64,000 bases of DNA. Source: Chrysoperla carnea (Eukaryota > Arthropoda > Insecta > Neuroptera > Chrysopidae). Position 1 is the stretch's first letter, and the number at the start of each line of letters is the position of its first letter. Positions 47,859-63,218 of this stretch are shown in pieces. The position numbers were made by a program, and so were the translations under genes. Location: positions 45,543,935-45,607,934 of the forward strand of contig NC_058338.1 of assembly GCF_905475395.1 (NCBI RefSeq), read 5' to 3'. Below the pieces are notes generated by a model. The model searched no databases and was not told the DNA's origin. It was given only the letters and a program-made list of their open reading frames with translations.

Positions 47859-50800
47859 ATGCAACTGTTCATAAAAAGTACATGGAATGTTATGAAATTT
47901 GTTAGACCCATTACTAGTAAAATGAACCCAAAAGTAGCCGTTGGACAAATGACAGCAACAAGTGATTTAAATCATAATTTAAAACAAGTTAAATGTATTA
48001 TTGAAAAAGCTACCAAGGAAAATGCTCAGGTATTTTCTTAGTTATTAATAAATATTTGACAGACCCCATAACCTAACCTGTAAACAACTTAACAATAAAC
48101 ACTCACGTGACCTTGAAAAAAAAATAAAGCCTGTGTTAAATCGGCTACTAAAACTTTAAAACATTAAATTAAATGGTTTTGTTTAATTTTAATTATTTTT
48201 AGCCTTTCTTTTAAAATTCGTGTATAACAAATATCTTAACCAATTTTCTTTTTATATTTAAGATTGTTTTCCTCCCAGAAGCCTGTGATTATATAGCAGA
48301 AAATAAAGAGCAAGCTATCAAACTCGCCGAGCCGTTGTCTGGTCCAAGAGTTACAGAGTATAAAAATTTAGCAAAAAGTAATAATGTTTGGATATCGTTT
48401 GGCGGGATACATGAATTGGTAGGACTTAATTATTTTGAAAAAATGCGTTTACAATTGTCAATTTCAATTCTTAGTTTACTGTTTCCCTATATATTATGAC
48501 ATATTAATATTTTGGTTTTATTCATTTGATTAATTAAAATTCAATAAAACAATACTCAATACATATTATAATTGGGATCTTCTTTATATAGGCCCATAAA
48601 ATTGGCGAAGCCACTTAAAAATATTGAATTTTGATTAGGTGAAAATTAAGAGATAGTTGCGTAGAATTTAGGTGCGTAAACGATAAATTAGATGCACAAA
48701 CGATTTTCCAACAATTGATAAAAAAAGTTTTGCCAAGATTTAATAACTTAGCAGTCCGTCGTATAAAAGTAGGTATTTTCTTTATTCCTAGGCGTAACAT
48801 TTAAGTGTAAAAATTGTAAGTGCTAATTGAGTGCCCCCTGAAAACTTAAAAAAAAAAATTTTTTTTTAGAGAAGTTATTAAAAAAACTGGCTGCATTCTT
48901 TGGTGATACACATAATGAATGATTTTACACAATAATTTAATTACGTATATTACAGGAGTGGGCATTAACAGGGTGGATGCCATCACAGGCTGAACGCAAT
49001 GGCCCAAAAACTCGCAGACCCGTGCTAACTCGACCTCATTACAGGCATAGCCAATCCGTGCATTGCAGAGTGGATGCATATCCTTTAACAGAATGAACGC
49101 ACTAGTCTGCGACTTTTTACCCCGTGCGATTATCCTGTGATCCACGGGTTGGCCATGACTTTAATGGGATCGAATTAGCACAGGTCTGCGGTTTTATTTT
49201 ACCTTGCGTTCACTTTGTGATAGAGTTCACCTCATGTAGTGTATATTATTGAATTAATACATGAATTTTGATGTGAAATTATTTATTTATGAAAAAACAC
49301 TCAAAGAAAATAGTTAAATAGATTAATGCATTTTTTAAGTATATTTCTTTAAATTTTTTTTAAATACGCGCATATTGTGTAAAATCCCTAATTATGATGT
49401 GTATCACCAAAGAATGCAAGGCACACAGCCTGTATTTTTTGATATCACAGACTTAAAACAATTTCTATGTTGATTTTTCTAAGGTTTCGGAACAATAAAT
49501 TAGCACTTGCATTTTACGCCTCAAAAAAAATAAAATATCTACTTTTACATGACGGATACTAGGTTATTAAATTATGACAAATTTTTCATTTTTTTCAATT
49601 TTTGGAAAAACGTTTGTGTCCCTAATTTATACGTATCTATATTGTACCTAAAAGCTCCTAATTTTCACCTAATCCAAATTCGATATTTTTAAGTAGGGCT
49701 CGTCAATTTTATGAATCTTTTTTATACTATTAAAGACTGTTTTATAGTTATCAGACTGGCATATCAATATGTGCATCAAGTTGTCGCTAATTAGTCGTGA
49801 ATTAGTTGTGAAAATACCGATTTTGTCGTTTTTTGGTTTTTTTGTATATTTGGGTGCTTTGCTAACTCTTCTACGAAAACCCTAAAGTCATTTTATGTAG
49901 GCGTGCTCTGCTAACCCAAAAAAACGAAAAAAAAATTGATTTTGGAAATAATTCCTTCGAAACTAATTGGCGACTAATTAGCGGCAAATTCTTATTCTAT
50001 TCCCATACTTATACGAAACCCCTAAAATAATTCTATGGAGGCATGACAAGTGCTTAGCTAACTTGATGCACATCATATAATGCATTAGCCAGCGATACTA
50101 TTGCTCTTAACACTAATAATTTTTGTTTGTTTGTCTCTGCCATGAACACAAAGATTTTTTAAATAAGTGTACTTATTTAAAAAGTCTTTGTAAGAACAAT
50201 ATAATGAAAGTGGTCCTAGATCGAAAAAGGTTAGTAATCGCTGGCATTAGTTTTTTTTTTTAAATGAATGTAAACCATGTAAACGCATCAACAATAAACA
50301 ACTTCATTCTTAGGTTTCAAATTTGTATCTAAAGTGAAATATTTTTAGACCGCCAATAATAAAGCATTCAACACACATCTTGTAATTAATAATTTAGGTG
50401 AAATTGTTGGAATATATAGAAAATTACATTTATTTAATGTAAAAATACCAGAAGAAAATATATTTTTAGTTGAATCAAAAACAGTTGAAAGCGGCAAATC
50501 CATTGTACCTCCAATTGAATCACCAATTGGAAAGTTAGCATTATCTATTGTATCCTTTAAATAACTGATTTTTCGAAATTACACATTTAGAAATTTTTGC
50601 GATATTTTCTTTAATTAATCAATTTAAGTGTTACGATATGCGTTTTCCAGAACTAGCAATTGCTTTACGACAAAAAGGCGCTGAAATTTTAACATATCCT
50701 AGTGCTTTTACACACGCAACTGGTGCTGCGCATTGGGAAATTTTGTTAAGAGCACGAGCAATTGAATCACAGTGTTTTGTTATTGCAGCCGCTCAAATTG

Positions 50801-52131
50801 GACGACATAATGAGAAACGAATTTCTTATGGTCAAGCTATTGTTATAGATCCATGGGGTAAAATTATCGGAGAATGTGAAAAACACTCAGACTCGGATCC
50901 ATATGAACCGACAGTTTGTACAGCTGAAATTGATTTAACCAAATTAGAAACTGTTCGAAAAAAAATGCCAGTTATAGAGCATAAAAGAACTGATATATAT
51001 GGTTCAATAATAGAAAACAGTATTTTTGAGTTGCCTAAGGAAGTATCTACGTTGAATTTTGGAGGAATAAAAATTCCAATTGAAACAGTATTTTATAAAA
51101 CACCATATTCGTATGCATTTACGAATTTACGTTGCGTTGTACCTGGTCGTATCCTTCTTATCTTCAAGAAAATCAGAACTAAACTGAAATTCCCATTTTG
51201 TCCAAGATTTATAACAGCAAAAATAAGCGATTTGTAGTGCACTTTTTTATTATTATCAACGAAGAAAATTGATTTCCTAATTATTTCCAATAAAGGTCTC
51301 TCACGCATCGAAACGAAATATAAAATTAATTAAAGTATTCTGTATTTAATAAAAAAAGGCGTCTGTGAAATAAGAAATAATCAAAATGTGCATAATTAAC
51401 ATGCTGGAGGTAAATCGAGTGTAAAAAATAGATGAGACTTTTTTATATATCTCGAAAACGGTTATATTTTTTTCAAAAACAACGTATTAATTTATGACGA
51501 ATATTTGATATCAAGAAAACGGTTCTTACCCGACTTTTAAAAGCTAATAACAAAAAACCAACTTAACAAAGCAAAAGTTGAACCATTCTAAAGTGATATT
51601 ACTATAACGGTACATGTAATTCACATACATAATGTTATAGCTATATCACTTAGAGTGGTAAAACACGTGCATTTTTTGTGACCCAGAGGTACTTAAGTTA
51701 ATTATGATTCCTTAATGATTTTAATAGATGTTTTGGTATCATCTGTACGAGAATCAAAACGACTTAGTGATTTAACACCCACCGAAGTTGCTGATTTATT
51801 TAAAACTGCTATTAAAGTACAAAAAGCTGTTGAAGAAGTTTACAAAGCAACCTCGTCTACAGTTGTTGTACAAGATGGACCCGAAGCTGGACAAACAGTC
51901 AAAGTAGATTTCATTTAATTTATGTAAATTTTTTTTATTACTTATATTATAATTTTTCAGCATGTCCACATCCATATAATGCCACGCAAAGAAGGAGATT
52001 TTGTTTTTAATGATGAAATTTATAAACATATACAACAGCATGATAAAGAAGGTCCAAATATGAAACCACCAAGATGCCTTGAAGAACAGAAGGCTGAAGC
52101 AGATATTTTAAGAAAAATTATTTCCCAATAA
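47859..52131 (+). CDS. NitFhit: NitFhit: nitrilase/Fhit fusion protein
   Basis: Six exons: 47859-48029, 48263-48418, 50349-50549, 50629-51148, 51728-51903 and 51961-52131. They give 464 aa, close to the fly and worm NitFhit proteins. Residues from about 22 to 310 form the nitrilase domain with the catalytic triad Glu63 (FLPEACDY), Lys134 (YRKLHLFN) and Cys177 (CYDMRFPEL). Residues from about 322 form the Fhit domain ([24 protein letters not shown]) with the histidine triad H409VHIH413. Nit1-type enzymes hydrolyse deaminated glutathione; Fhit hydrolyses diadenosine triphosphate and acts as a tumour suppressor in mammals. The fusion is known from invertebrates, with separate genes in vertebrates. 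The first 21 residues are basic and amphipathic, and further Met codons follow at 12 and 22, so mitochondrial and cytosolic forms are possible. Intron 2 (1.93 kb) carries a large foldback. The frame is intact. Confidence 0.97.
48596..49719. mobile_element. ~1.1-kb foldback element in NitFhit intron 2
   Basis: Two arms of over 500 bp are imperfect inverted copies around a centre near 49157. Mirrored marks, left then right: CATAAAATTGGCGAAGCC with its complement at 49700-49719; TTAATAACTTAGCAGTCCGT against ATGACGGATACTAGGTTATT; GCATTCTTTGGTGATACACA against GATGTGTATCACCAAAGAAT; and an inner GC-richer block (48957-49245) with AACTCGCAGACCCGTGCTAA against TTAGCACAGGTCTGCGGTTT. No open frame with a recognisable product. 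Confidence 0.75.
49760..50090. repeat. Smaller foldback next to the 1.1-kb element
   Basis: TATGTGCATCAAGTTGTCGC at about 49778 is mirrored by AGCTAACTTGATGCACATCA at about 50056, and the centre has GTTTTTTGG opposite CCAAAAAAACG. A CTACGAAAACCCTAAA block at 49872 also recurs directly as TACGAAACCCCTAAA at 50013. Confidence 0.5.
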
Positions 52132-52583: not shown

Positions 52584-54166
<1,583 letters not shown>

Positions 54167-54291
54167 TTTCGTTTTGCAAATTCTTTAGGACTGTTTTATA
54201 TTTTGAGGTTATGTGAGATTTCGCGCCACCAAATTTTGTTTACACCTGTTTTGTAAGTATTAAACCATTAAAACTTTTTTTTAATTGTAAA
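54167..54291. promoter_or_regulatory. Bidirectional promoter region
   Basis: Only 125 bp separate the ATG of GPATCH11 (minus) from the ATG of the 299-aa gene (plus). Both promoters and 5' UTRs must fit or overlap the neighbouring units. No TATA box is evident; a TTCGCGCCACCAAATTTTG patch is the only GC-richer part. Confidence 0.5.
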
Positions 54292-55191
54292 ATGGATTCA
54301 GAAGTAATTGAAAATTTATTTCAAAAATTAAAATTAGAAAATGAGAAATATCAAGAAATTGTTGAACAAGTTGAATCTGAGCGCAATAAAACGAGTACAA
54401 TTAACCTTTTAAAAAATGTAGATACTTTAAAACATTTAATTTCAATTAAACTTAAAATATTTAATACTTATAAGTTATTATTAGAAAATATTGATTTTGA
54501 ATATCATTGCCGGAACAATGATCCGAAAAATTATTTTGTATTAGTTGAAATTAATTTCAATGAAAAATTTTTTCAAAACATTTTAGTGCTAAATTCAAAG
54601 TTAAATATACGAATTAAAAGCAAATTTTGTATAAAAAATGAAAGTGTTTCACTCTCTAATCCATTAAATATTATAATTCCATATCCAAATACGCCAGTTA
54701 ATTCTGTATTAGACGTAAATTTATATACGAAATTCGACGATTTATTTTTTATAGTACCGGTGTACTCGAAAATATTAAATGTTTCATATTGTTTTCAACT
54801 AATTAATCGCCCAATAATTACAAGTGCGGACTATAATTTATCAGAAAAGTTAGTGAAAATTTGTAATTCAAGTGATAATAGTTTAGAAAGTGTAAGTGAG
54901 GAGCAAACTGAGGAAATTCAATTTAGTGATGGAATTAAGATTCAAGACATTTACAACATAATGTTAAAAAATTGTGCACATCAATCGGATATAACGATTT
55001 TAAATAAATATGTTTCAAATGATTTAAAAAGTAGACAAAATGAATATTTGCGTGTTGGTAAACATACTCAAGTTAAATGTATAATTGACATGCATAAAAA
55101 AACTTTAATAATAACCGGTGATCATGGAGAGTATGTTAAATATATAGTGGATTATTTTAATCAAGAATTTGGTTTATTTAGAAAAAATTAA
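54292..55191 (+). CDS. Uncharacterised 299-aa protein, intronless
   Basis: A single open frame from ATG to TAA, the longest uninterrupted one in the window. I do not recognise the family. Residues 1-70 are charged and predicted helical (KLKLENEKYQEIVEQVESER), probably a coiled coil. The middle is rich in beta-type hydrophobics (NPLNIIIPYPNTPVNSVL, FIVPVYSKILNVSYCFQ). An acidic linker follows (SLESVSEEQTEEIQFSDG) and the C-terminus is again mixed (KTLIITGDHGEYVKYIVDYF). No signal peptide or membrane span is obvious. The gene is divergent from GPATCH11 and 240 bp before MOCS2A. Its lack of introns stands out here and could mean a compact fast-evolving nuclear or kinetochore-type gene or a retrocopy, but nothing in the sequence decides this. 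Length, composition and clean borders support a real gene. Confidence 0.75.
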   Translation: MDSEVIENLFQKLKLENEKYQEIVEQVESERNKTSTINLLKNVDTLKHLISIKLKIFNTYKLLLENIDFEYHCRNNDPKNYFVLVEINFNEKFFQNILVLNSKLNIRIKSKFCIKNESVSLSNPLNIIIPYPNTPVNSVLDVNLYTKFDDLFFIVPVYSKILNVSYCFQLINRPIITSADYNLSEKLVKICNSSDNSLESVSEEQTEEIQFSDGIKIQDIYNIMLKNCAHQSDITILNKYVSNDLKSRQNEYLRVGKHTQVKCIIDMHKKTLIITGDHGEYVKYIVDYFNQEFGLFRKN

Positions 55192-55431
55192 ATCTAAAAA
55201 AACGTCGCGTCCTTGAAACATATATAAGAAGAATTAAACCAGTAATTTTTTTATCGAATTGATCGTGACGTATGCTATATAGTTATAAAATTATAATTAG
55301 ATAACATTTTTTTTTTTAAATATTTATGTGTGGTGGGGTTTTAAACTCTCCACATATTATGAAATACAAAGCACTTTACAGTTTACATTCATAAATATGC
55401 CGAGTTCATATCATGTTTATAATGATATGCA

Positions 55432-55692
55432 ATGCAACAGATTGAATTAAAAATATTATTTTTCGCAAGAGCGAAAGAATTGTCAAAAAAATCTGAAAGT
55501 AATTTAATTTTATCGTCAAATGAGTTAACATTTGATGAATTGTTAAATATTATTGTTTCAAAATACTCATTAGAACCAATTAAAAATATTTTGAATTTAT
55601 CATTGAATGAAAATTTCTGTGATAAAGATTCAAAACTTTTGCTTCGATCGGGTGATGAAATTGCTGTAATTCCACCGTTAAGTGGCGGATAA
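55432..55692 (+). CDS. Mocs2A: Molybdopterin synthase sulfur carrier subunit (MOCS2A, MoaD type)
   Basis: An 86-aa single-exon frame with the ubiquitin-like MoaD fold pattern: LKILFFARAKELS near the start, LTFDELLNIIVSKY in the helix, LLRSGDEIAVIPPLSGG at the end. The C-terminal Gly-Gly is the site adenylated and thiocarboxylated to carry sulfur for molybdopterin synthesis. The size matches the 88-aa human protein. Its stop is followed 5 bases later by the MOCS2B start, so both should come from one bicistronic mRNA as in other animals. No poly(A) signal lies between them. Confidence 0.95.
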   Translation: MQQIELKILFFARAKELSKKSESNLILSSNELTFDELLNIIVSKYSLEPIKNILNLSLNENFCDKDSKLLLRSGDEIAVIPPLSGG

Positions 55693-55696
55693 AATA

Positions 55697-58600
55697 ATGG
55701 ATCATTTAAAGTTAACGTATAACAAATTAGCTGTCGACGATATAGTTGAGCTAGTTTCGTCTCCATCATGCGGGGCAGTTTCAATGTTTTGTGGTACGAC
55801 GCGTGATAATTTTGATGGAAAAACTGTTGTGGAATTGGAGTATGAAGCATATGAAAGTATGGCATTAAAAGTTATGAAAGAAGTATGTGTAGAAATGAGA
55901 CAAAATTGGCCTTCAATTGAGAATATTGCTATCTATCACAGGTATATGTTAAATTTGTTTGTAATTAAATTTTTTTATTGTAATTAAATAAATAATACTT
56001 ATACTGTTTTTTTATCTTAAAAAAATAATTGCTTGGTAAATAATAACTTCTGTTATTGAAATTATTTTTCTGGGTGAATAATATTGTTACAAAATATCAT
56101 TAATATATATTGACAATATACAGTTAAACTTGTTTAAGTGGGTAACTTTTGCATTCTTAAATAGTTTTTGATTTTGAATCCCCGTTTTATTTATTTATAC
56201 CGAAAAGTATGAAAATATTAATTTGAATTCACTAGCAAATCCAGTCATTAAATAATTCTTTATAAATAAGAAATTCGTCGTTGGAATTTATATAAATATA
56301 AACAAAATCGATTGGGGCTTTTTTGGGAAAATTAATAAATTTTACGTAATTGAAGGGCAAGTACTACTCCTAAAATTTCCATAGATAACAATAAGTTTTG
56401 TAATTTTATAATTTTACTTATTTTATAAAAACTATGATAATTATAACTGGAATAAAAGTGAAGTGGCCTAATTTTAGAAACAATAACTTTTGTTAAAATT
56501 ATTAGTTTAAACTTTCAATCTAGATAAAATTAAAGCCTGGTAATTGATATAGCCCTCCCCTCCTTCTGAGTAGAACAACTTTTCCTTAGGTAATTTTTTT
56601 CAAAAACGTTTCATTGAAGAATCATTTAGCTAGGAAGATTAAAATGTGACATTTTATAAAATTGGCTGTAACTTGGAAACGACTTAAATTCGTGCCTTTA
56701 TTTAATCGTCATTCCAAATGTGAAATAGACAAATTTTTAGCCACAGTAATCGGTGGTTATCTTAAACTGTGCGATAAATTTCGGACACTTGATGTCCTAT
56801 TTAGCGAAAGAATATCATATATTCCCTTAAAATGATTCGGTGGAAAAGGGTTAAATATATCATTATATTTTTGTCGTCTTTTTAGTTAGTCTATTTCATA
56901 GTTAGAACACACGAACGGGTTTTTGTGTATTAAAGTTACTCGGGGCTTTATTTACTGATAATATGGCTAAACACTCAAATATTAAAGTGACAATGATTCT
57001 GAAGTACTCGGGTATCAACGTTATACTTAAAAAGAAATGAGTGAATGGGCCTATTTTGCATAAAAAAGCATCGTTATATACATTTTTTCCGTGGTTAGAA
57101 AGAGGTAGGTAATGTAAAGGGATGCCTTACTCGTTAAGAAGATTAAAAAAGAAAATATTGAAATGTTTCTTAAACAAATTTAACTGTTATTAATTTAATG
57201 ATGAAATATAGACGCAAAAAATGTAAATAACTTGAATGCATTTTGTTTCCTTGCCTAAACCACATGATCAGTAAGGTATCATATTAAAGTGCTTAAGTAT
57301 TCATACAATTATCTATTATGTTGGATTTGTTAAGCGTGTTGAACTTTGGCAAGACTTTCACATGGTAAATCTTCATCCAAAACTTTTGTTTTTAGCTTAT
57401 TATACCTATTATCTTTTTATTTTTAAACTCTTAAAGAGGGGTGTTTATCACGGTGTTCGGCGCTTAACTTTTTTTACAAAATTATTGTAGTCTAATAAAC
57501 AACTGTGCTAAGTTTTAAGAGGGTAGCAATTTTTTTTATAACGCTGATATTTTAATTAATTTTACTGTATCATTAAATAAAAATTATCAAGTGCTGATAA
57601 CAATTGATGAGAATCAAGTAGTATAGTAAGCCAAAGAGTAGATTTTACTTATTAAAACTTACTGTAAAATAATTTTTACTTCCTTATACTAGGTAAAGGA
57701 TGTATTGAAATCGCGAAAAAATATGTCTGTTTGTATTTTTTTTATAACCCAAATGCCCATTTTGATTAGCTTTGACGGGACGTCTGTAATATGTCTCACG
57801 TAACTAAAAAACCTTTGACCGTATAATGTTGTTTTTGATTCAAGCCTATTGTAACATCTAGTTAAACAACTCTTCTTATGAACAAAATTAAGACATATGT
57901 AAAGGCGATTTACTAGAAAACTAAAACACAAAATTTGAAATTTCTCGGAACATATAAGCAAAATACAATTTTTTAATATACAAAATTGTAGAAAATAATT
58001 TTTAATACAATTCACCAATCATTTTTTTTCAAAGACTGCTATTTACAGCTAATTATTTTGATCATCGGCTACTAGGTTTTTTTTACGTACAAGGAAATCA
58101 TGTGGTGCCATCAGACTTTTTTCTGTTTTTATGTAAACTAGCACAAATTTTATTGCTTACTCAGTTGTTTAAAGAAATACTCATCACTTGTTCAGAAAAT
58201 ATTTTTGTAAGATAGTAAAATACGCGATTCTAAAATTGACACGCCGCACTTATTTCAAGCTATTGTTGTCCGATCTCTTATTTCTCGGAAACGAACAAAT
58301 AACAATTTATTTATACAAACCCCAGAAAAATACATTCAATTTTTCAAAATTATCTTATACCACATAAAAAAGCTTTAAAACAAATGAAATTCAACAATTG
58401 ACTGAATTAATTGTTGAAATACTCTGTATAGAGAATGTTGAATATCAATGCTTGCATTATTTTTAATAAATTAGAGAAGCTTATATTTCCATTTGTTCTT
58501 GTTTTGAAAATTTTTCTAGAGAGTATTTTCTAGAAAACTTTTTTTATTATTTTTCGAAAACCTTTCATAAGACTCATTAGATGGATCTACTTACAAATTT

Positions 58601-59228
58601 TCAATTCTTCTGTCTTTTATAAATTTGGAGAAAATGGACACCAAAATTTTGCCTTAATTTGCTCCTTCATGATATTTACGAAAAAAATTTTCATACAAAA
58701 GTTGTTTATTTTTTAAAATAAGAAACATTTTTATATTCAAGTTTTCTTCTATCTCTAACGGTTTACAAGATTGGTCCTACGGATTCAAGACCCAATTGAC
58801 CTTATGTTGCTATAAAAATCTCGTTATTGTTTCCATAAAGTTCATTGAACAGTTTGTTTGTCATTATCAAGCAAGTGTGAAGGAGTGGTTATTCCGAAAA
58901 GATCTATAACTTCTTTGAAACTTCAACCTTAATATGAATGATAAATAATCAACGATAAAAGCAATAATTTCCAATAATTGAAACGAAAAATAAATTATTT
59001 TTTAGATTGGGTTTGGTTCCTGTAAAACAATCCAGTATTATCATAGCGGTATCGTCTCCACACAGAGAGGCAGCTTTATTAAGTACACAATATTGTATTG
59101 AAAATGTAAAAGGACGTATTCCCATATGGAAAAAAGAAAAATATGGAAAGGATGATGAAACGGCACCAGCTTGGAAAGAAAATAAGGAATGTCCTTGGTC
59201 AAGTAATAATCAATTTGTACTAAAATAA
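55697..59228 (+). CDS. Mocs2B: Molybdopterin synthase catalytic subunit (MOCS2B, MoaE type)
   Basis: Two exons, 55697-55941 and 59006-59228, giving 155 aa. The ATG at 55697 is the first in frame and lies 4 bases after the MOCS2A TAA; the frame is also open upstream. MoaE landmarks are GAVSMFCGTTRDN, VVELEYEAYESMALKVM, IAIYHRLGLVPV, SSPHREAALLSTQ and IPIWKKEKYG with the catalytic-region lysines; the domain ends at NKECPWSS. It binds the MOCS2A C-terminus and inserts two sulfurs into precursor Z. The intron is ~3.06 kb and contains a repeat copy. An in-frame alternative donor lies at 59203, eight codons before the stop, and could join the MBIP exon downstream. AATAAA at 59348 would end the unfused form. 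Confidence 0.95.
55942..59005 (+). other. MOCS2B intron 1
   Basis: A phase-2 GT-AG intron of ~3.06 kb. Apart from the repeat copy at 58376-58810, I find nothing but AT-rich sequence; the open frames on the minus strand near 57700-58018 are low complexity. Confidence 0.7.
58376..58810 (-). repeat. Interspersed family, subfamily 2 copy in MOCS2B intron
   Basis: Family ends AACAATTGACTGAATTAATT and ACGGTTTACAAGATTGGTCC are present. The middle (CATAAGACTCATTAGATGGA, ATTTTCAATTCTTCTGTCTT) matches the copy at 4680-5042 rather than the main family. Confidence 0.65.
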
Positions 59229-59347
59229 TTTTTTTGTAATTATAGTTAAGTTTTGAATATTATCTAGATATAAATTATTATATATATATTTTATGTAATT
59301 ATATAGATTTATTATATTATATTTAATGTTATTTCATTTGTTCATTG

Positions 59348-59353
59348 AATAAA
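59348..59353 (+). terminator. MOCS2A/B poly(A) signal
   Basis: AATAAA ~120 bases after the MOCS2B stop. If used, it ends a MOCS2A-MOCS2B transcript before the MBIP exons. Confidence 0.5.
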
Positions 59354-60021
59354 ATTATTATCGGAAGTTTGGGTAAATATTGTTAGTAATTGAAATTATA
59401 TATAATTATTTATATATAATTGAAGAGTATATTGATATGTATAATGTTGTAATATCTTAATTTTTTTGTTGTAAATGCATTGACGTAAAATTCCGGTACA
59501 GTAATATATGCTTAATTTTATAGGGACAGAGTGTTTATCTCCCCAGCTAAAATTAAAAAATATAAATTTAAAAAAAATATAATTTCCAAAGTTAGTTCTT
59601 TTAAAAACTAGCAACTTTTACTCAAAACATTTTTTCAAATGTTAGATTTCGTCGAAATCATACGCAAAAACAAGTATAGGGAAATTTGTGCATTGATTTC
59701 CATCGAATTTATTAGGTTAGCGAAAAAATGTTTCTACTCTCAAAAAATGTATCAAACAATAGTTGTTCGAAAATTTTATAAAGAACTCAATTTTCCATAT
59801 TTAAAATAATTATCTTGATTCTGAAAGTTAAAGCCTAATTCGAGGCATACGTGAGATATCCTCTTTTAAGTATATTAACTTTTACTCGGATCATTTTTTC
59901 CGATAAAGCTTAGTTGAAGAAAAATTTAACTGGGGAAATTTAAATGGGCCCAATATATAAACAAGATTTTTGTCCCTTTTCATTTTTAGATCGACTTGTA
60001 GACCGGTAGCTACTAACATAC

Positions 60022-60167
60022 TAAAGGTATGATTCCTATGCTGCGGCTGACGTAAGCGTCTGATGAACTATGCTGCTACTACTATTATTTTATCTATGGA
60101 TGCTACTATGAAATCTAATGCAAGCGTTATCTTAGTCGTCAGCCGCAGCATAGGAGTCATACCTTAA
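60022..60167. mobile_element. 146-bp MITE
   Basis: Terminal inverted repeats TAAAGGTATGATTCCTATGC followed by TGCGGCTGACG on the left and CGTCAGCCGCAGCATAGGAG followed by TCATACCTTA on the right. The arms also mirror GTAAGCGTC... and GCGTTATCTTAG. The centre has CTACTACTATTATT. It lies between the MOCS2B stop and the MBIP acceptor. Confidence 0.75.
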
Positions 60168-60935
60168 ATCGTAACCGAAGAATCAAATTTTTTGAATTGC
60201 GAATCGAACTTGGTATGTCTTGCACGCCAAAGTCAAAGCTAGTAGCTCCAGGCCCGTGCGAAAAAAAATTTACCTAAAGCTATCATTTCTTTAAGATCCT
60301 TTGGACATCGATAATAGAGACCTTCAGCATTATCATAAAAAAGTTACAATTATATAAGTAAATTTGGTATGCGTTATAAAATAATAATTTTCGCTGAAAA
60401 CATGCTTAGAAAAACTTTTATCCCAATCACAGGGGAGATTATTCCCCCAAAATTGACATAGTTCCGAGGAGACTTTTTCGACATGATTGCATTGCGGAAC
60501 AAACTTTACATTAAAAATTGAACAAAGAGGCATAGATGGGCCAATCAGCCACTCTGGATCAAACTATTTTACGAAACCCATGATTTTTTTAATGGCGTAT
60601 TTCTCGCCTCTGAATGAATGTGGTAGCATGATCTTTGTGAACATAGGCTCAATCGTTATCTATCTGTTAATCTTTCGCAATGCTTTCGAGTGGAAAAAGC
60701 CTCCTCGAAACTAGTACAAATTTAGTGATTTATATGTCGCCTTGATTGGTGTTAAGAAGTCGAATATTAGTGCAAAACGACAGATATGACGACTTTGGCT
60801 CAATAAAAACTAAAACAGTTAAAAATCGTTAAAACAGCCCTTTTGGGTACTTGTATTGTCTGTAGCTTTGTTCAGATTTTCACGACTAATAATTGGAAAT
60901 TATTTTTATAGACAGAGAGAGCCGCCTGTAACGAA

Positions 60936-63154
60936 ATGTCTTCCAATGAAACAAAATCGATACAACCTGAAACTGAAGATGATGATCTGGTTCAAATTAA
61001 AGCCTCAAATTCTGAAATACTTCGGCGTATCAATAGATTTATGGAACGCAAACGTGAAATGTTAAACATGACAAATGTTTTAGACTTCTGTGTCCCGAAT
61101 ACATCCAATATTGATTTACATACTGAAACAAATTCGTGTGCACGTATTGATGCGGTTTTAACTCGAAGAAAAGATTCGAAAAGTCATTTACGAGGTATAC
61201 AATTTATTATTACAAAGTATTTAAAAAAATGTTATTTATTTAAAAACCCATATATCAAAGTCCCAAAATATCAAAGTTTAATTATTTTAAAAATTATTTA
61301 ATTTTTTCTTATTTCTATCGAATAAAATAAAAACAATTTTGTGAACATGTTTGTTGTTTAAAATATTTACGATTATTATTATATATTATATAACTTACAC
61401 CTTATTATTGCAATAAAAAAGTCAGGAATAATTTATTGAAATCCGTACAACAATATTATTAATTAAAAAAATCACTTTAGTTAGTCATGAACGCCACCAA
61501 TATTTTTAAAAAGATTGATTAAGCACTAGTGCTAGCTAGCAATAGCGCTTATAGCCGTTTGGAGATATTTGAACGACAGAAGATTATTAAAAGCTATTAT
61601 ACTATAAAACTAATAAGGATATCACTGTAACTACAAGACTAGAGCCAATAGAATCTTTTGAACAAAAATTTTTAATGATTAGCAGTTGTTGCTAGCAAGC
61701 TTTAAAGAATTTTTGTGACACCCTATTAAGCTCATTAGCGTCGTGTGTAAATAGATCGGCGCCCTAATTGTTAACCAAAAAAGTTGTCAAATAAATATAA
61801 AATAAAAAAATTGGAAATTCGTACCACCATTTTTTTCGACAGGGCTTAATGTGAAGGTATCTCTCGATTCATTCTAGGACTATCTCTTATTTTTTGGTAA
61901 GAAACAACTTTACAATTTATACGAATTTTTTTTTCTAAAATGTAGTCAGCATTAGTATGAATCAAGTCAAAGTAATTATTGTGCTACTAGGGACGGTTAT
62001 TACTACATTGTATCCAATATGACTGAAATAATCTAAATATTTATGGCATAAAATAATCTTTCCAATAAAGCACATTATTATGTACATGGCAATGAAAATC
62101 ATTTCTATGTGTTTTGTTTTATTTTGTATACTTCTCATGTTAAAAAATACCCTATTGAATCGGGAAGATTTTAGAAGTCAAGAGGAGCCAAATGTCTCTT
62201 CTTACTCTCATCTCTAGACACCTATGATTGTAGATACATTTCAATTGTAAAAGAAGTGATTAATTTTATACCAATAGGTCAATTTATAATACATCATGTA
62301 GCTATAATGTAAATAGCCATAAAAAATTAATTTAATATCAATATACAAACAAGATATGGTTAATCTTATTTACTGAATAATTTATATTGAGTCTGAAATA
62401 CTAATCTGCATCTGTAAATATTATTTTGGATCCGAAATACTATATATCTGTAGTGGCGGTTGGTGTTAGGTTTTATTTCCTCGAATAAAATACCGATCAA
62501 ATTTCAGCAGAAACATTCACTTCTCCTCCCCATACCATATCGATTATTTATCTATTTATGAAATTTCGTTCCCATTTAGGCAAAAAAGTCTTTATTGTAC
62601 ACCCCCTCTCTCTGTTATTTTATCATCTGTTCGAAAAATTGTTAGCTTCTCTATATAAACAATTTACCTAATTTGCAAAAAATCAATGCTCTTTGTACGA
62701 GTTAAAAAAATTAATTTTAAATTTCAGTGCGACGTGTTCATAATGTTCAGGGTCCATTAACAATGCATTCGATGGAAGTTAATTCAATTTCAAACAATGA
62801 TGGAATATCTGAACGTCTTGCTAATGCTGAACAACATTTATTATTAAATAAACCAATACCAACTGATATATATGAAAGAATAAAACGTATTGAAGATCGA
62901 ATTTTGGAATTAGAAAGTTTATCACCTGAATATTGTCAATTTTGGGTAATATAAACTTGTAGATTGTATGAAAAATAAATTAATGAAGAATTTATTTATA
63001 TTTTCCTTTTCAGAAACATTTGCCATCAATGCCATTGCCACCTTTACAAAGATTACTTTCCACTTCGCAAAATTTAAAACGAAAAAGGGATAGTGATTCT
63101 CTAGTAGATATTGAAAAACGGATTGAACATCTTCAAAGAGAAGCTTTAGAATGA
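60936..63154 (+). CDS. MBIP: MBIP-like ATAC complex subunit (may be spliced to MOCS2B)
   Basis: Three exons: 60936-61194 (open back to the acceptor at 60911 or 60915), 62728-62945 and 63014-63154. From its own ATG the protein has 205 aa. Segments resembling MAP3K12-binding inhibitory protein 1 are IDAVLTRRKDSKSHLRG, NKPIPTDIYERIKRIEDRIL, LELESLSPEYCQFW and the C-terminal helix DIEKRIEHLQREALE, a leucine-zipper-like coiled coil; LKRKRDSDS may be a nuclear signal. MBIP is a subunit of the ATAC histone acetyltransferase complex and tempers MAP kinase signalling. In Drosophila MBIP is fused to MoaE in one gene, which fits the position and orientation here directly after MOCS2B. Intron 1 (61195-62727) shows nothing notable. 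The family call rests on the YERIKRIEDRI-SPEY region and on synteny. Confidence 0.85.
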
Positions 63155-63212: not shown

Positions 63213-63218
63213 AATAAA
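63213..63218 (+). terminator. MBIP poly(A) signal
   Basis: AATAAA ~60 bases after the MBIP stop, a good distance for 3' end formation. Confidence 0.5.

Follow-up and report, generated by a model that had tools for sequence, protein, structure and literature searches.

In a 64,000-nucleotide (nt) stretch of DNA from the lacewing Chrysoperla carnea (RefSeq assembly GCF_905475395.1, contig NC_058338.1, positions 45,543,935 to 45,607,934 of the forward strand; hereafter the window, with a GC content of 29.4%), MOCS2A, MOCS2B, and the C-terminal region of MBIP are encoded consecutively, all on the + strand. The likeliest reading of this locus, to which we assign a probability of about one half mainly on the strength of the Drosophila precedent, is that it is the counterpart of Drosophila Mocs2 and that the MoaE domain of MOCS2B would be joined to MBIP by splicing through a tandem acceptor whose two sites are 4 nt apart. 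Judged from its sequence, the locus is a good candidate for such a fusion and not a demonstration of one, and the MoaE-MBIP fusion itself is already known from Drosophila. A first-pass annotation had proposed in addition that this species may stand at an intermediate stage, producing both a free MOCS2B and a fused protein. The parts of the locus, numbered by window position, are as follows.

55432..55692, + strand: MOCS2A (MoaD-like small subunit of molybdopterin synthase), single exon, 86 amino acids (aa), C-terminus PPLSGG.
55697..55941, + strand: MOCS2B (MoaE) exon 1, whose ATG lies 4 nt beyond the MOCS2A TAA.
59006..59202, + strand: MOCS2B exon 2, coding up to donor 59203 (CAA/GTAATA, phase 1).
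59203..59228, + strand: end of free MOCS2B by read-through if the donor is unused, SSNNQFVLK and then a stop at 59226-59228; the free form has 155 aa.
59217..59218, + strand: second donor put forward by the first-pass annotation, TTT/GTACTA, very weak (-2.58 bits).
59348..59353, + strand: AATAAA 3' of the MOCS2B stop, 119 nt beyond it.
60910..60919, + strand: tandem acceptor cluster, with a strong AG at 60910-60911 (exon from 60912, phase 0), a weak in-frame AG at 60914-60915 (exon from 60916, phase 1), and more AGs.
60912 (or 60916)..61194, + strand: MBIP exon 1 (or fusion exon 3), with an in-frame ATG at 60936.
62728..62945, + strand: MBIP exon 2, from spliced alignment.
63014..63154, + strand: MBIP exon 3 with the stop, from spliced alignment; AATAAA at 63213.

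The two subunits of molybdopterin synthase are readily recognized. MOCS2A passes the Pfam ThiS cut-off (E 3e-10, 40.9 bits against 22.5) and scores under the curated equivalog cut-off of NCBIfam moaD (E 5.7e-14, 52.7 bits against 66.15); both the ThiS/MoaD fold and the C-terminal Gly-Gly are present. Pfam MoaE covers residues 7-118 of the joined protein (E 7.5e-37, 126.4 bits against a cut-off of 23.4), MOCS2B matches the human protein in the PDB (5mpo_C, E 6e-43), and an independent spliced alignment of the human MOCS2B stretch of PDB 5mpo places the intron at 55942-59005. Compared with five PDB chains, two human and three bacterial, MOCS2B keeps the MoaE core motifs, namely the R of GTTRxNF, the HR of SPHR, and WKKE near the end. 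Over 154 aa the MBIP exons are 47% identical (E 2e-35) to a presumed human MBIP sequence. Because the MBIP part matched neither a Pfam family nor any convincing PDB chain (best E 0.38), its identity rests on this presumed human sequence. Pfam, PDB 5mpo, and the presumed human MBIP thus support the gene identities given by the first-pass annotation, and with them a possible Drosophila-like fusion. In searches of the whole assembly (559,487,470 bases, 337 contigs), MoaE and MBIP each match this locus only, with the proviso that a degenerate MoaE-like domain could fall under the detection limit. No relatives of the locus were found in further contig collections (viral_contigs, genome_contigs).

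Two papers describe Drosophila Mocs2B as a MoaE-MBIP protein whose entry into the ATAC complex needs the MBIP part (PMC9228816, PMC5817353), which agrees with what the first-pass annotation had stated of this fusion, and one review presents the union of a cofactor enzyme with an ATAC subunit as exceptional (PMC5817353). In humans, according to PMC9228816, MBIP and MOCS2B are separate proteins, and the N-terminus of vertebrate MBIP is MoaE-like and degenerate in human. The Drosophila Mocs2A and Mocs2B open reading frames (ORFs) are described in three papers as sharing a dicistronic message (PMC4528330, PMC2276209, PMC5817353), and the Mocs2/CG42503 pair is called highly conserved in one of them (PMC4528330). 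The lacewing locus resembles Drosophila Mocs2B (CG10238, dMoaE) and Mocs2A (CG42503) in that MoaE is followed by MBIP in one direction, with adjoining MOCS2A and MOCS2B ORFs. The joined lacewing protein would have 359 aa, against 367 aa for what we take to be the fly Mocs2B. Differences from Drosophila Mocs2 are the 1.7 kilobases (kb) between the sequences coding for MoaE and MBIP in the lacewing and an early ATG in MBIP itself; the lacewing splice that keeps the frame is, moreover, weak and faces a stronger acceptor in another frame. The locus also has human relatives, MOCS2B through PDB 5mpo and MBIP through the presumed sequence, whereas in humans the two are separate proteins.

Several considerations favor a fused product. 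Within the assembly MoaE and MBIP each occur at a single locus, in the order and on the strand expected from the Drosophila fusion, and an unfused MBIP here would be without a MoaE-like part, unlike vertebrate MBIP. Since vertebrate MBIP has a MoaE-like N-terminus and the Drosophila protein is MoaE-MBIP (PMC9228816), the order MoaE-MBIP is likely ancestral, so that a split in this species would rather be a fission. This background favors a fused product in the lacewing together with this ancestral order, and not a fusion caught in the making; the proposed intermediate stage is unsupported. The remaining considerations concern the acceptor and the interval before it. Acceptor 60912 is far from chance, the two best noncoding donors of the interval lie in repeated stretches, and no exon was found that joins 59202 in frame to 60912 (starting from donor 59203, with acceptors of at least 5 bits, donors of at least 4 bits, and lengths of 12-400 nt). 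In addition, close AGs at an acceptor are reported, in PMC1431707, to compete with each other in a way that depends on the preceding base, and here the second AG is CAG and the first is TAG.

We also compared the joined protein with a presumed sequence of Drosophila Mocs2B (367 aa), and we treat the outcome as a lead only. Identity with this presumed sequence is 40% over 346 aa. Likewise as a lead only, an 'AAC' just past the junction, 5' of the lacewing ATG, is common to the lacewing and the presumed fly sequence, as if that stretch were coding.

If the lacewing locus does work as a Drosophila-like fusion, its expression might proceed as follows. The ORFs and their spacing are suited to one transcription unit, which would yield a dicistronic mRNA for MOCS2A and MOCS2B. 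The MoaE exon would be spliced from donor 59203 to the MBIP exon via the tandem acceptor 60912/60916, both of which are present, and choice of the second AG (60916) would then produce the 359-aa MoaE-MBIP protein. By analogy with Drosophila, the MoaE part would serve molybdopterin synthase and the MBIP part would serve the ATAC histone acetyltransferase complex. Free MOCS2B could arise from intron retention (stop 59226) or from use of the first AG, which shifts the frame into a stop at 60929. These products would be distinguishable by predicted tryptic peptides: ECPWSK and AACNEMSSNETK for the junction of the 59203/60916 fusion, ECPWSNR for the out-of-frame splice 59203/60912, and ECPWSSNNQFVLK for the retained-intron product that reads through past 59203.

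Some features of this arrangement could arise by chance. At the base level, the stop at 59226-59228, the donor GT at 59203, the acceptor AG at 60914-60915, and the single open frame of 1080 nt and 359 aa created by joining 59202 to 60916 are exactly as the first-pass annotation reported. Its second junction, 59216 to 60912, is likewise in frame (1098 nt, 365 aa), and either one gives a single open frame across the MoaE and MBIP domains. It is true, then, that the frame is kept, but this is weak evidence: the AGs ending at 60911, 60915, 60917, and 60919 represent each of the three phases, which makes an in-frame junction of some kind nearly certain, barring an intervening stop codon. MOCS2B does have its own stop and poly(A) signal, as had been claimed, but this combination is at chance level and ordinary in AT-rich DNA: of the window's 262 donor-like GT sites, 45 share it (a phase-1 stop at most 9 codons from the GT and AATAAA at most 125 nt from that stop). 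Nor is a donor as good as 59203 rare, as one occurs in 9.6% of random 24-nt windows. Acceptor 60912 is another matter. A score this high turns up at 16 places in 64 kb, 0.6% of random points have one within 24 nt, and an acceptor as strong lies directly upstream of 7 of 1111 ATGs. Because this is well above chance, it is very probable that 60912 serves as an acceptor for some splice.

To score the candidate sites, we used a splice-site model trained on the same genome, with P450 and kinesin loci aligned to their paralogues by a spliced aligner that relied on GT, AG, and protein similarity only and used no splice consensus. Among 119 aligned introns, 66 were kept, each with its donor and acceptor fixed by the protein alignment and its donor not duplicated; the others were discarded because the alignment margin was below 10 at the donor or acceptor (34) or because the donor was a duplicate (19). 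The training introns therefore come from two gene families (41 P450, 25 kinesin), and paralogous introns remain among them. Donor 59203 receives 5.06 bits, a value that nine of the 66 real donors do not exceed; it is without G at -1 and at +5, as are six of the real donors. The alternative donor 59217 is so weak that one real donor scores no higher. The first acceptor, 60912, reaches 10.34 bits (47 of 66 real acceptors score at or below this), and the second, 60916, has 2.26 bits (2 of 66). The locus has three further introns, which reach 18.7, 14.6, and 14.6 bits.

These scores lean against the in-frame pairs, and they and some further observations speak against a fusion at this locus. Both junctions that keep the frame depend on a weak site, and the strong pair does not keep it. 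For 59203/60916 the sum is 7.32 bits, a level at or below which only one of 66 introns falls in leave-one-out scoring and none without it. The corresponding figures for 59217/60912 are 7.76 bits, 3 of 66, and 0 of 66. The out-of-frame pair 59203/60912 reaches 15.4 bits (24 of 66 introns at or below in leave-one-out scoring, 14 of 66 without). The acceptor that stands out from chance, 60912, is thus not the one required by the in-frame junction from donor 59203, since it is out of frame with that donor. A second AG within the last 12 nt before the acceptor's own AG is seen in none of the 66 real acceptors (in six within the last 20 nt); in humans, PMC1431707 gives about 10% of acceptors with another AG within 12 nt. 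MBIP also carries an ATG of its own, 24 nt into the exon. When given the presumed fly protein, the spliced aligner picked 59217 to 60918, which is neither proposed junction. A CTAAT 5' of the acceptor was considered as branch-point support and dropped, because the training introns show hardly any excess of CTRAY (9 of 66, against 9.4% of random 33-mers).

The most serious competing explanation is that MBIP is an independent gene under a promoter of its own, whose first exon is noncoding and lies in 59229-60911 or which has no upstream exon, and that MOCS2B simply ends at 59228 with its poly(A) signal at 59348. We consider this doubtful, although it accounts naturally for the strong acceptor, since 60912 would be indifferent to frame if the upstream exon were noncoding, and the first in-frame ATG at 60936 carries G at -3. 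The AATAAA 3' of the MOCS2B stop also suits it, with the reservation that the stop and signal combination is at chance level. Donors stronger than 59203 exist in the interval, for example 60213 (TTG/GTATGT, 6.91 bits), and a noncoding first exon of MBIP may, from the sequence, lie there. The interval itself is composed in part of repeated DNA: several stretches resemble sequence elsewhere in the genome, among 370 matches, many of them to the AT-rich first 230 bases. One such stretch is a distinct element.

60024..60165, no strand assigned: short inverted-repeat element with 29-nt arms that are 97% complementary, holding the best-scoring alternative donor, 60027.

Among the matches listed, parts of this element have counterparts of 84-95% identity on other chromosomes, and it is perhaps a miniature transposon. 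That the two best noncoding donors of this interval (60027 and 59591) fall within repeated stretches, where 59373 and 59716 are also found, counts against a separate MBIP gene; donors 60213, 60006, and 60358 are outside the repeated stretches among the matches listed. A separate MBIP would furthermore be without a MoaE-like part, unlike both vertebrate MBIP and the Drosophila fusion. A promoter scan was set aside as evidence, because the model is a bacterial one unsuited to an insect, and its count of 13 against a shuffle mean of 11.4 is no excess.

A second alternative, which overlaps the reading of the locus as a Drosophila-like fusion, is that free MOCS2B would be made by intronic polyadenylation and the fused protein by splicing, with both regulated. 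Weak donors favor intronic polyadenylation, and donor 59203, without G at -1 and +5, would fit. There is also a parallel in the same pathway and the same genome.

L066:1060-1956, contig 5 around 21431601: MOCS1 locus, holding the only MoaC (MOCS1B) match of the assembly.

Here the last MOCS1A exon ends RPMILIGG-stop, GT donors overlap both glycine codons, and the acceptor at L066:1382 carries MOCS1A in frame into MOCS1B, so that the stop would be bypassed by splicing, by the same logic as for MOCS2B and MBIP and in the layout known for free-or-fused MOCS1. PMC9607355 reports that human MOCS1 yields bicistronic and fused forms by splicing, and PMC5817353 that Drosophila Mocs1 is produced in short and long forms. 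The MOCS1A-MOCS1B junction pairs reach 8.03 and 11.3 bits; when leave-one-out is not applied, none and 3 of the 66 introns, respectively, score no higher. The fusing junction of MOCS1, whose use in this genome is a prediction, is thus also weak by the same score, and a weak in-frame junction may still be used. The parallel has its differences, because MOCS1 joins two enzymes of one step and not an enzyme with a chromatin-complex subunit, and because its donors overlap the terminal GG codons. We regard regulated production of both forms, as the first-pass annotation would have it, as unlikely: the stop with its AATAAA is at chance level, and the in-frame pairs are near the bottom of the real introns (1 and 3 of 66 in leave-one-out scoring).

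Another possibility, which we judge improbable, takes 59203/60912 as the main splice and yields a polycistronic mRNA from which MBIP (205 aa) would be translated by reinitiation or some other internal start. This unites the top-scoring acceptor with the top-scoring donor of exon 2 (15.4 bits). MOCS2B would gain NRESRL and end in ...KECPWSNRESRL-TAA, at 153 aa, and this TAA precedes the MBIP ATG by 4 nt, the same spacing as at the joint between MOCS2A and MOCS2B. That spacing is suggestive at most, since 82 of the window's 1110 ATGs have a stop exactly 4 nt before them, and for 49% of 1108 ATGs the first stop of the corresponding frame falls within 20 nt. For the MOCS2A/MOCS2B joint, no acceptor of at least 2 bits was found in 55200-55700, and hence no splice that would separate the two into a form encoding MOCS2B only. 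Together with the four ATGs between the MOCS2A and MOCS2B starts, which speak against simple leaky scanning, this means that a dicistronic message with reinitiation fits better. In Drosophila, PMC4528330 gives Mocs2/CG42503 as dicistronic and seven tricistronic loci in FlyBase, whereas PMC9607355 describes the human MOCS2 pair as using leaky scanning, not reinitiation. A polycistronic message would also leave MBIP free of MoaE. Reinitiation after an ORF of 153 codons should be inefficient, and nonsense-mediated decay would be expected to target the mRNA. Finally, it is conceivable, but a long shot, that the tandem acceptor 60912/60916 is a frame switch, with one AG giving the MoaE-MBIP fusion and the other a tricistronic MOCS2A/MOCS2B/MBIP message.

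Other features of the window were noted in passing. An ORF on the + strand at 54217-55191 (324 codons from stop to stop, 299 aa when read from the ATG used) ends 240 nt before MOCS2A and matches no Pfam family above cut-off. Also near the locus are a G-patch domain ORF at 53548-54066 on the - strand and a carbon-nitrogen hydrolase (nitrilase-like) exon at 50569-51237 on the + strand, both identified with Pfam. Tandem arrays rich in TATACCGT/ACGGTATA units occupy 2143-2625, where open frames on both strands look repetitive rather than genic; the one open frame scanned there had no Pfam match.

An insect-wide survey of the MoaE-MBIP fusion did not turn up among the papers listed in our literature search. 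MoaE and MBIP that stand in line, are each found once, and can be joined in a lacewing would extend this arrangement beyond flies, and would allow the direction of change, fusion or fission, to be tested across insect orders. If the frame switch at the tandem acceptor is true, an enzyme and a chromatin subunit would be made joined or separate by a splicing change of 4 nt, and a tandem acceptor that switches between the two kinds of product in this way would be a compact coupling of metabolism to chromatin.

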